NCBI RefSeq assembly: GCF_001428505.1
Contig: NZ_LMHU01000008.1
Location: 124,001-188,000, forward strand
Origin: Terrabacter sp. Root181
GTDB lineage: Bacteria > Actinomycetota > Actinomycetes > Actinomycetales > Dermatophilaceae
Direction: 5' to 3'
Length of the DNA stretch: 64,000 nt
Part shown: piece after piece, positions 55,852 through 60,448 of the stretch
How positions within the stretch are numbered: position 1 is the stretch's first letter
Layout of the letters: each line of letters starts with the position of its first letter
Made by a program: the position numbers and the translations under genes
Notes under the pieces: model-generated
What the model was told of the DNA's origin: nothing
Seen by the model: the letters and a program-made list of their open reading frames with translations, nothing else
The model's database searches: none

Positions 55852-58791
55852 TCACATCGGGACGACGTTGACGAGCTTCGGCGCCCTCACGATGACGGTG
55901 CGGATGCCGCCCTCGGTCGCCGCCCTCACCTTGTCACGACCGAGCACCAGCTCGCGGAGGTCGTCCTCGGAGATGTCAGGGCTGACGTCGACGCGGTCGC
56001 GCACCTTGCCCTTGATCTGGATGACGCAGGTGACCTGCTCCTCCACGATCTTCGCGGGGTCGCTGAGGGGGAAGGCGGCGTAGGCCACCCCTCCCTCGTG
56101 ACCGAGCCGCTGCCACATCTCCTCCGCGATGTGCGGCGCGACGGGGGCGAGCATGAGCACCATCGCCTCGACGACCTCGCGCGGGGGTGCGTCGAGCTTC
56201 GTCACGGCGTTGTTGAGCTCGATGAGCTTGGCGATCGCCGTGTTGAAGCGCAGGGCCTCGAAGTCGTCCCGGACGCCGGCGATCGTCTGGTGCAGCTGCG
56301 TCGTCAGCGCCTGCTCGAGGGGGGCGTCGACGACCCGCACCTGACCGGTCGACTCGTCGATCACGTTGCGCCACAGCCGCTGCAGGAAGCGCTGGCTGCC
56401 GACGACCGCACGGATCTCCCACGGCTTGGAGAGCTCGAGCGGGCCCATCGACATCTCGTAGACGCGGAAGGTGTCGGCGCCGTACGCGTCGTACATCTCG
56501 TCGGGACTCACGGAGTTCTTCAGCGACTTGCCGATCTTGCCGTACTCCCGGTTGACGGGCTGCCCCTGCCACGTGAAGGTCGGCTCGGCGCCGTGGCTGC
56601 CCGGGTGCTCCTCGACCTCCGACGCCGTGACGTACTGACCGCGGCTGTCGGTGAAGGCGTAGGCCTGGATGTAGCCCTGCGAGAAGTACTTCCGGAACGG
56701 CTCCTCGCTGCGCACGTGGCCGAGGTCGAAGAGTGCCTTGTGCCAGAAGCGGGCGTAGAGCAGGTGCAGCACCGCGTGCTCGACGCCGCCGACGTAGAGG
56801 TCGACGCCGCCCGGGTCGCGCGTGCCCGCCGGGGCGCCCGCGACCGGCGTGTCGTGGCGGCCCAGCCAGTACGCCTCGTTGGCCGGGTCGACGAACGCGT
56901 CGTGGTTGGCCGGGTCGAGGTAGCGCAGGTAGTACCAGCACGAGCCCGCCCAGTTGGGCATGGTGTTCGTCTCGCGGCGGAACTTCCGCAGGCCGCGGCC
57001 GTCGCCGAGGTCCTGCTCCACCTCGACCCACTCGGGCACGCGGGACAGCGGCGGCTCGGGGCTGCTCTGGGAGTCGTCCGGGTCGAACGTCTTGGGGCTG
57101 TAGTCCGGCACGTCCGGGAGGGTCAGGGGCAGCTCGTCGTCCGGGACGGCATACGCCACCCCGTCCTCGTCGAACATGATGGGGAACGGCTCGCCCCAGT
57201 AGCGCTGGCGGCTGAAGAGCCAGTCGCGGATGCGGTAGCTGATGGTGCCCTCGCCGAGCCCCTCGGCCTCGAGGAGCTCGATGATGCGCGCCTTGGCCTC
57301 GGCGACGTGCAGGCCGTCGAGCGAGACGCGGTCGTTGGCGGAGTTGATGGCGACCCCGTCGCCGAGGAACGGCTCGTCGTCCGGGTGGCCCTCCGTGGGC
57401 TGGACCGTGCGGATGATCGGGATGTCGAACCTCTCGGCGAACTCCCAGTCGCGGGTGTCCTGGCCGGGCACGGCCATGATGGCACCCGTGCCGTAGCCCA
57501 TCAGGACGTAGTCGGCGACGAAGACCGGGATGCGCTCTCCCGTCAACGGATTCGTGGCCCACGAGCCGGTGAACACACCGGTCTTGTCCTTGCCCTCCGT
57601 CTGTCGCTCGACGTCACCCTTGCGCGACGCCGCGAGCTGGTATGCCGTCACGGCCTCCTTGGGGGTCGCGGTCGCGTCGGCGTCCGCCCCCTTCCAGACG
57701 TCCTTGGTGCCCTCGGGCCACGCACCGGCCGGGACGAGCGCGTCGACGAGCGGGTGCTCGGGCGCGATGACCATGAAGGTCGCGCCGAAGATCGTGTCGG
57801 GGCGCGTCGTGAAGACGTCGAGGCCGTCGTCCTCACCGGTGCCGGTGACGACGGGGAAGGTGACGCGGGCGCCCTTGGACCGACCGATCCAGTTGCGCTG
57901 CATGAGCTTGACCTTCTCGGGCCAGTCGACACCGTCGAGGTCGTCGGCCAGGCGGTCCGCGTAGGCCGTGATCCGCATCTTCCACTGGCTGAGGTTGCGA
58001 CGGAAGACGGGGTAGTTGCCCCGCTCGGAGCGACCCTCGTTGGTGACCTCCTCGTTGGAGAGCACCGTGCCGAGTCCGGGGCACCAGTTGACGGGCGCCT
58101 CGGAGGTGTAGGCGAGGCGGTGGCCCTCGAGGACCCTCGCGCGCTCGGTCGCGGACAGGTCGCCCCAGCCGCGGCCCTCGGCGTCGACGACGGCGCGACG
58201 GCCGGACTCGAACTCCTCGACGAGCTCGCTGATGGGGCGGGCCTTCCCGCGGCCGCCGTCCTCGCGCACGGCGTCGACGTCGTACCACGCGTCCCAGATC
58301 TGCAGGAAGATCCACTGCGTCCAGCGGTAGTACTCGTCGTCGATCGTCGCGAAGGTGCGGCGGTTGTCGAAGCCCAGCCCGAGGCGGCGCAGCTGGCGCT
58401 TCATGTTCGTCATGTTCTCCTCGGTGGTCTTCCGAGGGTGCTGCCCGGTCTGGACGGCGTACTGCTCCGCGGGCAGGCCGAACGCGTCGTAGCCGAGGGC
58501 GTGCAGGACGTTCTTGCCGAGCATCCGGTGGAAGCGGCTGTAGACGTCGGTCGCGATGTAGCCGAGGGGGTGCCCGACGTGCAGGCCCACGCCCGAGGGG
58601 TAGGGGAACATGTCGAGGACGATGAGCTTCTCGCCGCGCGCCGCGACCTTCTCGGGCTCGGCCCAGGGCCCGGCGGGGTTGGGCGCATTGAACGTGCCCT
58701 CCTCCTCCCAGCGGTCCTGCCAGGAGGTCTCGATCTGCTGCGCCATCGCCGCGGTGTAGCGGAACGGGGTGTCGTTGCTCTGCTCGCTCAT
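55852..58791 (-). CDS. leuS: Leucyl-tRNA synthetase
   Basis: The 979-residue class Ia synthetase charges tRNA-Leu. The HIGH motif is [12 protein letters not shown] after [14 protein letters not shown] is [15 protein letters not shown], and the editing domain (about 260-490) contains [20 protein letters not shown]. Residues near VIEYI are replaced by an actinobacterial-length insertion, and the length fits the 950-980 range of the phylum. The C-terminus includes [11 protein letters not shown]-like [20 protein letters not shown]. The ATG at 58791 has AGAGA upstream. An intrinsic terminator with a U-tract and a leucine-rich leader peptide precede it, so expression is probably attenuated by leucine supply. 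Confidence 0.96.
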
Positions 58792-58823
58792 GTCTTCTCT
58801 TTCGTCGCTGCTCGGGTCTGGGC

Positions 58824-58861
58824 AAAAGAAAACCCCTCGCACAGGAGGGGAGCCGCGTTGA
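58824..58861 (-). terminator. Attenuator terminator in the leuS leader
   Basis: On the minus strand CCCCTC-CTGTGC-GAGGGG (58850 to 58833) is followed by TTTTCTTTT (58832 to 58824). It is the only hairpin in the window with a true U-tract. It lies 33 bases before leuS, downstream of the leader peptide, so it ends transcription before leuS unless prevented. Confidence 0.85.
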
Positions 58862-58882
58862 TGTCGGGAGTCCCGACCTTCG

Positions 58883-58918
58883 TCAACGCGGCTGCGGAAG
58901 GAGCAGCAGGCCAGCCAT
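58883..58918 (-). CDS. Leucine-rich leader peptide of leuS
   Basis: Eleven codons, ATG at 58918 to TGA at 58883-58885, encode [11 protein letters not shown] with four consecutive leucine codons (CTG CTG CTC CTT). A -10-like TAACCT (58931-58926) lies seven bases before the ATG, so translation probably starts at or near the 5' end of the message. Its last codons belong to the left arm of an 11-bp stem (58883-58893 with 58851-58861) that sits directly before the terminator. Ribosome stalling on scarce Leu-tRNA would alter folding, as in classical leader-peptide attenuation. Confidence 0.75.
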
Positions 58919-59068
58919 GCGCCCAAGGTTAGCGCAGAGCCCACAGCGCTCGCGGCCGCCCGAAAACGGGACAGGCCCGGCGGCGACCATTCGCAAAGCC
59001 ACCCGAAGCGCCTCGGGGAGGGACAGGATGGACGGTGACTCTCGGGGACCTGCACGCGGGAGGTGCGC

Positions 59069-60448
59069 ATGTTCAAGCGAGCTCGATCATGGTGGGTGAG
59101 GGTCGTCGCGGTGTGCGGCGCCGTCGCCGTCGGTCTCCTCGTTGCCGGGGCCCCGGCAAGCGGCGCTCCGGCAACAGGTGCTCCGGTTGAGCGTGAACAG
59201 ACCGTTCGCCAGCCCTACGACTTCGTGAACTGGGGCTGCGGCTACCCCCTCGAGGTGAGCGGGGTGCTGACCCACGTGTTCACGCTCCGTCAGGACCCGC
59301 GGCTCGAGGGCGAGCTCCTGTTCATGGACCAGTACGTCTTCTCGGAGACGTACACGAACGAGGCCGGCGCGTCCGTCACCGCCACCGGCAGCGGCGTCTC
59401 CAAGAACGTGCCGGCGCGGCGCGTGGGCGCGTCGACGTGGACGTTCACCTTCCTGCAGGCCGGCCAGCCGTTCACCATCCGTGACTCGTCGGGAAAGGTC
59501 GTCAGCCGTGACAGCGGGGTGCTGCGGTTCGAGGCCACCGTCGACGTCGCGACCGGCGAGGAGGTCGGCTTCGAGCTCACCGTGTCGGGGCCGCACCCAC
59601 TCTTCGACCAGGACACGTGCAAGGTCGTGGCGCCGCTGCTCGGCACCGCCTCCGCGGACCACCAGACGGCACGCCCCCTCGGCTCGACCGACGCCGCAAT
59701 GGGCTACTTCGAGTACCTCCCGCCGTCGTACTCCCCCGACGGTGACGGCAGCCCGCTGCTCGTCGTCACCAACGGCTATGGCGAGAACGGCGACGGCTCC
59801 GCCGAACAGCTGAGCAACCTGCTCTTCACCGGCGTCCCGAGGTTCATCGACGTCGGCGGATGGCCCACCGACCGACCCCTCGTGGTGCTCTCGACCCAGC
59901 ACGTGGAGGACCCGCCCGGGTTCGACTTCTCCCCCTGCGACGGTGTCGATCCGTGGGGTGGGTCGTGTGCGATGCAGCTGCAGCACGACCGCGGCCACGC
60001 CTCTCCCGCCGCCTGCACCACCCCGGCCGAGATCCACGACTTCATCGCGTATGCCGTGGCGCACTACAACGTGGACCCCAGCCGGGTCTACCTCACCGGA
60101 CTCTCCTGCGGCGGCTTCGGTGCGTGGGAGTACCTCGCCGCATACGGCGACAGCCAGGTCGCAGCGGCCGTGCCGATCGCGGCGGACGGCAGGTACGCGT
60201 GGGCCTCCGTCGGGTGCGCCCTCGGCGACGTCCCGCTCTGGGCCTTCCACGGGGGCCTGGACGATCTCGTCAACCCGCTCGGCAGCACCGTGACGATGGA
60301 GAACGTGCAGGCGTGCCCGGGAGTCGACCCGCAAGCAGCTCGGCTCACCGTCTACCCCGACCTGTACCACGACGGTTGGGACCAGGCGTACAGCGGGAGC
60401 CGGGGTGACGACATCTACACGTGGATGCTGGGGTACGCGAACCCCTGA
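59069..60448 (+). CDS. Secreted alpha/beta hydrolase (esterase-like)
   Basis: This 459-residue protein has a signal peptide ([20 protein letters not shown], cleaved near ASGAPA), an N-terminal beta-rich domain (about 45-205) and a C-terminal alpha/beta hydrolase (about 215-455). The nucleophile elbow is [15 protein letters not shown], the acid lies near [11 protein letters not shown], and the histidine is in [13 protein letters not shown]. It resembles secreted phospholipase/carboxylesterase or poly-ester depolymerase-like enzymes. ATG 59069 has GGGAGG five bases upstream and is preferred to GTG 59063. It is divergent from leuS. Confidence 0.8.

Follow-up and report, generated by a model that had tools for sequence, protein, structure and literature searches.

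A conserved leucine leader and two adjacent hairpins as a probable transcription attenuator of leuS in Terrabacter sp. Root181 and related actinomycetes

The leuS gene of Terrabacter sp. Root181 is preceded by a leaderless-looking leader ORF rich in leucine codons, a hairpin (hairpin 1) and an intrinsic terminator, which together are very likely to constitute a ribosome-mediated transcription attenuator reading the supply of charged leucine tRNA. The switch is very probably used to make more leucyl-tRNA synthetase (LeuRS) when charged leucine tRNA runs low. How hairpin 1 would act on the terminator is a separate question, for which antitermination by contact is tentatively proposed below.

Results

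Layout of the leuS leader

The window (i.e., the whole stretch of 64,000 nucleotides analysed here) carries the element on its minus strand, upstream of leuS (55852..58791, with the ATG at 58791), the product of which is a leucine--tRNA ligase of 979 aa that matches TIGR00396 with 855 bits (cut-off 548). Proceeding towards leuS, a –10 box (5′-TAACCT-3′, 58926..58931, minus strand) is followed 7 nt further on by an ATG at 58918, which opens an ORF of 11 codons plus TGA (58883..58918, minus strand), read directly as ATG GCT GGC CTG CTG CTC CTT CCG CAG CCG CGT TGA. A generic sigma-70 scan found no promoter at this leader, and the promoter assignment is based on the –10 box and on the constancy of its distance to the start codon. 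The four adjacent Leu codons lie at 58909-58898, and the last of them, CTT (58898..58900, minus strand), is the putative sensing codon according to the comparison of leuS leaders, located 8 nt before hairpin 1.

Hairpin 1 (58852..58892, minus strand; identified from sequence, fold and covariation) overlaps the leader stop codon at 58885-58883 and pairs arm A (GCCGCGTTGA, 58892-58883) with arm B (TCAACGCGGC, 58861-58852) over 10 bp, or 11 bp in the centroid fold, which adds the pair A58893-U58851; a further, inner hairpin lies at 58877-58863. Only 1 nt downstream, the terminator hairpin (58833..58850, minus strand; sequence and terminator search) joins CCCCTC (58850-58845) to GAGGGG (58838-58833), and its stem runs directly into the U-tract TTTTCTTTT (58832-58824), which with the following G (58823..58832, minus strand) places a TG 8 nt after the terminator stem. 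No other terminator-like site was present within 58500-59300 (mean of 0.3 in shuffles). The layout given in the earlier note, i.e., –10 box, 11-codon leader with four Leu codons, stem, terminator and leuS, thus proved right at every coordinate.

An Rfam search of 58500-59200 returned three matches up to an E-value of 5, with no T-box among them, and the element itself was unmatched by Rfam in both the window and five relatives. As a side observation, the string GCGCTAACCTTGGGCGC-ATG recurs in the same genome (C7:443694-443725) upstream of a gene that by eye resembles dapA; with GCGCTAACCTTGGGCGC directly before its ATG, this gene has another leaderless-looking start.

The fold of the leader region is moderately better than that of shuffled sequences (z-score of –2.45; 3 of 200 shuffles at least as good). 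The minimum free energy structure computed for the window pairs the Leu codons with the 3′ arm of the terminator. The two-hairpin fold is the centroid and prevails in the ensemble of a transcript that ends with the U-tract (terminator at 0.84). A chance origin of the leader is excluded by the comparison with relatives and not by this fold score.

Conservation in the family and the class

The leuS gene was sought in two overlapping sets of genomes, 9 from the genus and 119 from the family, and its upstream regions were taken from 60 of the 123 relatives (7 from the same genus and 53 others). Leader, hairpin 1 and terminator occur together before leuS in 47 of these 60, which supports leader-peptide attenuation of leuS as the earlier note had proposed it. 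That note had also named relatives devoid of the element as evidence to the contrary, and part of the family does fit this description: the combination was absent, by eye and with the covariance model described below at an E-value up to 0.001, from the other 13 of the 60 (L018, L022, L023, L031, L036, L038, L043, L044, L047, L053, L058, L059 and L060), although a few of these carry a hairpin possibly terminating the preceding gene.

The window and the 47 relatives formed a first set of 48 family leaders (A1), members of which were chosen partly for their Leu runs, so that CTT counts in this set are biased. Choices made by eye concerned L028, L032, L042 and L050, which were found in this way, L040 and L051, of which the start codons were reset, and L059, for which an automatic pick was dropped. 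Hardly any variation occurs within this set in pairs one to six of hairpin 1, so that the family data alone say little about pairing.

A covariance model (R1) built from these 48 leaders and scanned against the class at an E-value up to 0.01, with stricter filters that lose weak matches, matched 152 of 296 genomes (66 of 106 genera). At all 39 class places examined, including the window (30 best loci and 10 further ones, with one duplicate), leuS was located downstream. Leaders matching the model at an E-value up to 0.001 were then assembled into a second set of 74 (A2), drawn from 87 sources of which the other 13 are the relatives lacking the element; seven same-genus loci (L003-L009), five same-family duplicates and two repeats were omitted. 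In this set, the alignment of which was fitted to the model and so leans towards it, 96.9% of cells are paired, as opposed to 54.7% or less upon sliding the partner. Changes on both sides were seen in 9 of 16 pairs (vs. 2.6 in shuffles, which overstate the significance since many rows are close kin), including 6 of the 10 pairs of hairpin 1. Moreover, the linker between hairpin 1 and the terminator measures 1–3 nt in all 74 leaders. The conserved feature is a geometry, i.e., sensing codon, 8 nt, hairpin 1, 1–3 nt and terminator.

Codon usage and start of the leader ORF

To count CTT without bias, named genomes were scanned with a pattern composed of hairpin 1 and the 5′ arm of the terminator, free of Leu codons. 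This yielded at least 118 matches, and 109 of those listed precede leuS (via tblastn). Among these 109, the codon 8 nt before the stem is CTT in 106 and CTC in 3. The nine listed matches without leuS comprise six scattered ones that lack CTT (e.g., in Sphingosinicella) and three that have CTT but break off too early for leuS to be looked for. Likewise, CTT is the sensing codon in 73 of the 74 leaders of the second set.

Pooling both collections gave 156 distinct leaders, every one of which has Leu at the sensing position (codon 0; CTT in 152). Leu also occupies codon –1 in 148 of them (CTC in 71, CTT in 52 and CTG in 25), codon –2 in 137 (CTG in 81, CTC in 30, CTT in 21, TTG in 4, plus one further codon) and codon –3 in 33. 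Since codons –1 and –2 change synonymously, the leader is a translated sequence. CTT itself is rare in this genome, accounting for 1 of 205 Leu codons in five coding sequences (one of them partial).

With the start codon taken as the in-frame ATG or GTG nearest to the model position, the 74 leaders begin with ATG (46) or GTG (28), and in 71 of them 6–7 nt separate the –10 box from the start codon, a spacing as for leaderless mRNA. The stop codon begins 6 nt (12 of 74) or 15 nt (59 of 74) after the start of the sensing codon, or later (three leaders), and thus falls just before or inside hairpin 1. The suspicion that the leader may be translated as a leaderless mRNA agrees with this spacing, and with a Streptomyces lividans counterpart, leuL2, that is reported to be leaderless according to RNA-seq (PMC8079986).

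Two LeuS types behind one leader

The leuS genes behind these leaders are of two kinds. Among the 109 leuS-linked matches listed, 71 precede a LeuS like that of the window and 38 precede a second type, ca. 37–43% identical at the N terminus. The one second-type protein that was profiled, that of L079, is a leucine--tRNA ligase (TIGR00396, 628 bits on 490 aa). The leader thus appears to follow function rather than one gene lineage, which suggests that gene and leader may be uncoupled in evolution. Loci with the second LeuS type behind the attenuator include L071, L077, L079, L109, L110, L112, L113 and L115.

Other features near the terminator

A TG is found 8 nt after the terminator stem in all 48 family leaders, with G at –10 in 47 of them. 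RNA polymerase pauses follow the consensus G–10 Y–1 G+1, which the TG after the U-tract resembles in sequence. A YG follows the U-tract in 70 of the 74 leaders of the second set and in 56 of 101 leaders of the pattern set, and 37 control terminator-like sites, a small group of doubtful quality, showed YG in 11 cases and TG in 2. Being less constant outside the family, the pause-like TG was not retained as part of the mechanism.

Pairing of the hairpin 1 loop with sequence beyond the terminator (TCGGAC with GTCCGA, or ACCGGAC with GTCCGGT in some species), although conspicuous on inspection, was likewise rejected, as it was not better than in re-paired controls (duplex energies: p-values of 0.90 over 48 leaders and 0.85 over 41; single helices: p-values of 0.04–0.13 over 40 of the 48, with 8 near-duplicates omitted). 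The complementarity of CGGAC in the loop to GTCCG after the terminator can be seen in L012, L013, L019, L041, L056 and others, with matching differences in a few species.

Finally, a ribosome at a stop codon close to a terminator can repress the latter (PMC4824070). Such repression was set aside for the leuS leader, given the 32 nt between stop codon and terminator in the window.

The same design before ilvB and citramalate-synthase-like genes

The covariance model found a second match in the Terrabacter genome, in the leader of ilvB (C1:1687684-1687803; 31 bits, E-value of 0.001), which encodes the peptide VARLLVLP, ends on GTA CTT CCC TAG and has its hairpins 0 nt apart. Ten second matches examined elsewhere comprise two ilvB leaders (L101 and L105) and eight leaders with Ile codons, ATT being the last (L096-L100 and L102-L104), that stand before citramalate-synthase-like genes. 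The L096 gene matches TIGR00977 (E-value of 5e-109) as a 300-residue fragment under the whole-protein cut-off; L098, L099, L103 and L104 share its protein start by eye, and L097, L100 and L102 are assigned from the likeness of leader and position only. All 11 leaders (three of ilvB and eight of citramalate-synthase-like genes) fold into two hairpins 0–3 nt apart, and in 10 of the 11 the start of the last sensing codon precedes the first stem G by 8–9 nt. The exception is L103, in which the last ATT lies 6 nt and the preceding ATT 9 nt from the stem. In the same five coding sequences of the Terrabacter genome, ATT accounts for 0 of 90 Ile codons and GTA for 1 of 262 Val codons. As CTT and ATT both end in TT, there might be an RNA-level need for UU at the sensing codon. 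In a literature search judged from its listings, no report of a citramalate synthase attenuator in actinobacteria was found.

Discussion

Proposed mechanism

With enough Leu-tRNA, the ribosome would reach the stop codon and cover the 5′ arm of hairpin 1; with hairpin 1 thus blocked, the terminator would act alone and most transcripts would end at ca. 58824. Under a shortage of Leu-tRNA, the ribosome would instead stall on the CTT codon, its mRNA entry just reaching the base of hairpin 1. Hairpin 1 could then form and prevent closure of the terminator hairpin inside the RNA exit channel, thereby allowing read-through into leuS. The contact step, in which hairpin 1 itself would antiterminate by touching the terminator stem and not by competing for base pairs, is put forward tentatively, as one possibility that may well prove wrong. 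It was proposed because hairpin 1 abuts the terminator stem, and it is suggested by the short linker (1–3 nt, or 0–3 nt in the 11 ilvB and citramalate-synthase-like leaders) together with the fixed 8 nt; we know of no proven example of antitermination by such hairpin contact.

The contact step depends on how far the ribosome reaches. In the window, with 6–8 nt covered beyond the A site, a stall at CTT leaves 9 to 7 of the 10 pairs of hairpin 1, and a ribosome at the stop codon removes all of them. With 11 nt covered, the stall at CTT removes hairpin 1 as well, so that the contact model would fail if a stalled ribosome shielded 11 nt or more beyond the A-site codon. Further points against the proposed mechanism are the 13 family relatives that lack the element, the unchanged behaviour of S. 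coelicolor ilvB after its candidate regulatory codons were altered (PMC1262725), and the minimum free energy fold of the window without ribosome, which is the opposite of what starvation control needs. A precedent for the logic of the attenuator exists in M. tuberculosis ilvB1, reporter expression of which was left low and drug-independent by changes to the regulatory codons (PMC13236596).

Alternative explanations

In classical trp-type attenuation, a stalled ribosome would let an upstream segment pair with the 5′ arm of the terminator (a 2:3 antiterminator), and the leuS elements of Streptomyces were described as classical attenuators equipped with antiterminator hairpins by Seliverstov et al. 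(2005; PMC1262725). We represented the ribosome as a masked stretch and determined whether the 5′ arm of the terminator is already engaged upstream at a stage when its 3′ arm has yet to be transcribed. Folding was at equilibrium and without pseudoknots, a simplification that leaves trp-type control some room. The single positive control, the E. coli trp leader, behaved as a 2:3 antiterminator should, with an engagement of 0.71 when stalled at Trp, 0.04–0.15 at the stop codon and 0.29 without ribosome. The means over the 74 leuS leaders, in contrast, were 0.01–0.13 when stalled, 0.14–0.21 at the stop codon and 0.29 without ribosome; stalling raised engagement by more than 0.3 in only 0, 0 and 5 leaders (footprints of 6, 8 and 11 nt, respectively) and lowered it by as much in 14, 13 and 9. 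A test that detects the trp antiterminator thus revealed no shared base-pairing antiterminator in the 74 leaders, although the window may have a private one. The window is one of the five gaining leaders, with stalled vs. stop values of 0.00 vs. 0.07 (6 nt), 0.03 vs. 0.58 (8 nt) and 0.41 vs. 0.01 (11 nt), i.e., trp-like at 11 nt only and the reverse at 8 nt. The earlier note's remark that no clean competing antiterminator was to be seen consequently holds for the set and less cleanly for the window, and trp-type attenuation seems rather unlikely. Full-transcript equilibrium was abandoned as a test of antitermination, since it scored the E. coli trp terminator at 0.96–0.98 in every state; for transcripts still lacking the 3′ arm, a slightly different counting gave 0.20–0.33 throughout.

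Two further explanations were weighed. The Leu codons (CTYCTT) could themselves be an antiterminator strand that pairs with the terminator 3′ arm GAGGGG, a pairing that translation of the leader, fast or slow, would remove. In its favour, the window's minimum free energy structure contains this pairing, CTT is nearly invariant, and with no ribosome present the 3′ arm has another partner in 0.15 of the window's ensemble. However, this strand lies inside the stalled ribosome, so that starvation would lower leuS expression; moreover, the terminator pairs at a mean of 0.91 over 48 leaders without ribosome, and the CTG found at codon –1 in 25 of the 156 leaders disturbs the pairing, all of which makes this explanation very improbable. 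Hardly better are the prospects of a translated leader followed by a terminator that does no more than dampen leuS constantly, irrespective of leucine. This would agree with changes to the candidate regulatory codons of S. coelicolor ilvB having had no effect (PMC1262725) and with the fact that the attenuator reading derives from sequence comparison. Against it speak the codon-level conservation of Leu, the presence of CTT always equally far from hairpin 1, and the replacement of Leu by Ile codons before citramalate-synthase-like genes and by Val/Leu codons before ilvB.

A ribosome-mediated attenuator with contact between its hairpins, as preferred here, could be extended to a more general proposal, held somewhat more loosely even than the contact step itself: a single attenuator design might serve actinomycetes for more than one amino acid, in which a leaderless mini-ORF places the rarest synonym (CTT for leuS, ATT for citramalate synthase and GTA-CTT for ilvB) 8–9 nt before a GC-rich hairpin abutting an intrinsic terminator. 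The position of the ribosome would set only whether the flush hairpin exists, and contact, not strand exchange, would stop termination.

Comparison with known systems

The E. coli trp leader is alike in that leader codons sense one charged tRNA and a terminator stands before the first gene. It differs by its 2:3 antiterminator, seen in our test and absent over the leuS set, and it is not leaderless. In the window, the classical trp-type behaviour, i.e., antiterminator pairing on stalling, is mixed by footprint.

Among actinobacterial systems, the M. tuberculosis ilvB1NC leader, likened here by description, shares a short ORF with branched-chain codons, a stop-codon ribosome that masks an antiterminator hairpin, and an intrinsic terminator; it controls another gene, and mutually exclusive hairpins are proposed there (PMC13236596). 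The LEU element of leuA similarly has a Leu-run ORF before a leucine gene (PMC1262725) but works through a pseudoknot in which the Leu run pairs with the leuA ribosome site, with no typical terminator according to PMC8079986, whereas the window has one. The portion of PMC9413887 that was available holds nothing on leuS control.

The closest counterpart is leuL2-leuS of S. lividans TK24, where the leader encoding MRAVRLLLSEPR is followed by a hairpin and a U-stretch (PMC8079986). Both it and the window have a leaderless-looking Leu leader, a hairpin, a U-tract terminator and leuS, although peptide and order differ. In the window, a Leu-codon ORF lies directly upstream of leuS with a hairpin and U-tract terminator in between, and homology connects the two: the locus L106, the peptide of which is the leuL2 peptide MRAVRLLLSEPR, matches the covariance model with 70.5 bits and is a row of the 74-leader set alongside the window. 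Among 80 rows of the match listing, 23 of them titled Streptomyces, MRAVRLLLSEPR occurs in 9 of the 21 Streptomyces matches before leuS and MRAVRLLLTEPR in 9 others. By these likenesses, the leuS leader is to be placed with a kind known from Streptomyces. The novelty that the earlier note implied for attenuation of a synthetase gene does not stand, as Seliverstov et al. had predicted such attenuators for leuS of S. avermitilis and S. coelicolor in 2005 (PMC1262725). By the present comparison, the leuS attenuator known from Streptomyces occurs in roughly half of the class as sampled and stands before two diverged LeuS types. Moreover, whereas the Streptomyces elements were called classical on account of an antiterminator, none was found over the 74-leader set, which turns that label into a testable question, i.e., how a ribosome may control a terminator without a shared competing antiterminator; the answer would bear on ilvB too, and probably on citramalate synthase as well.
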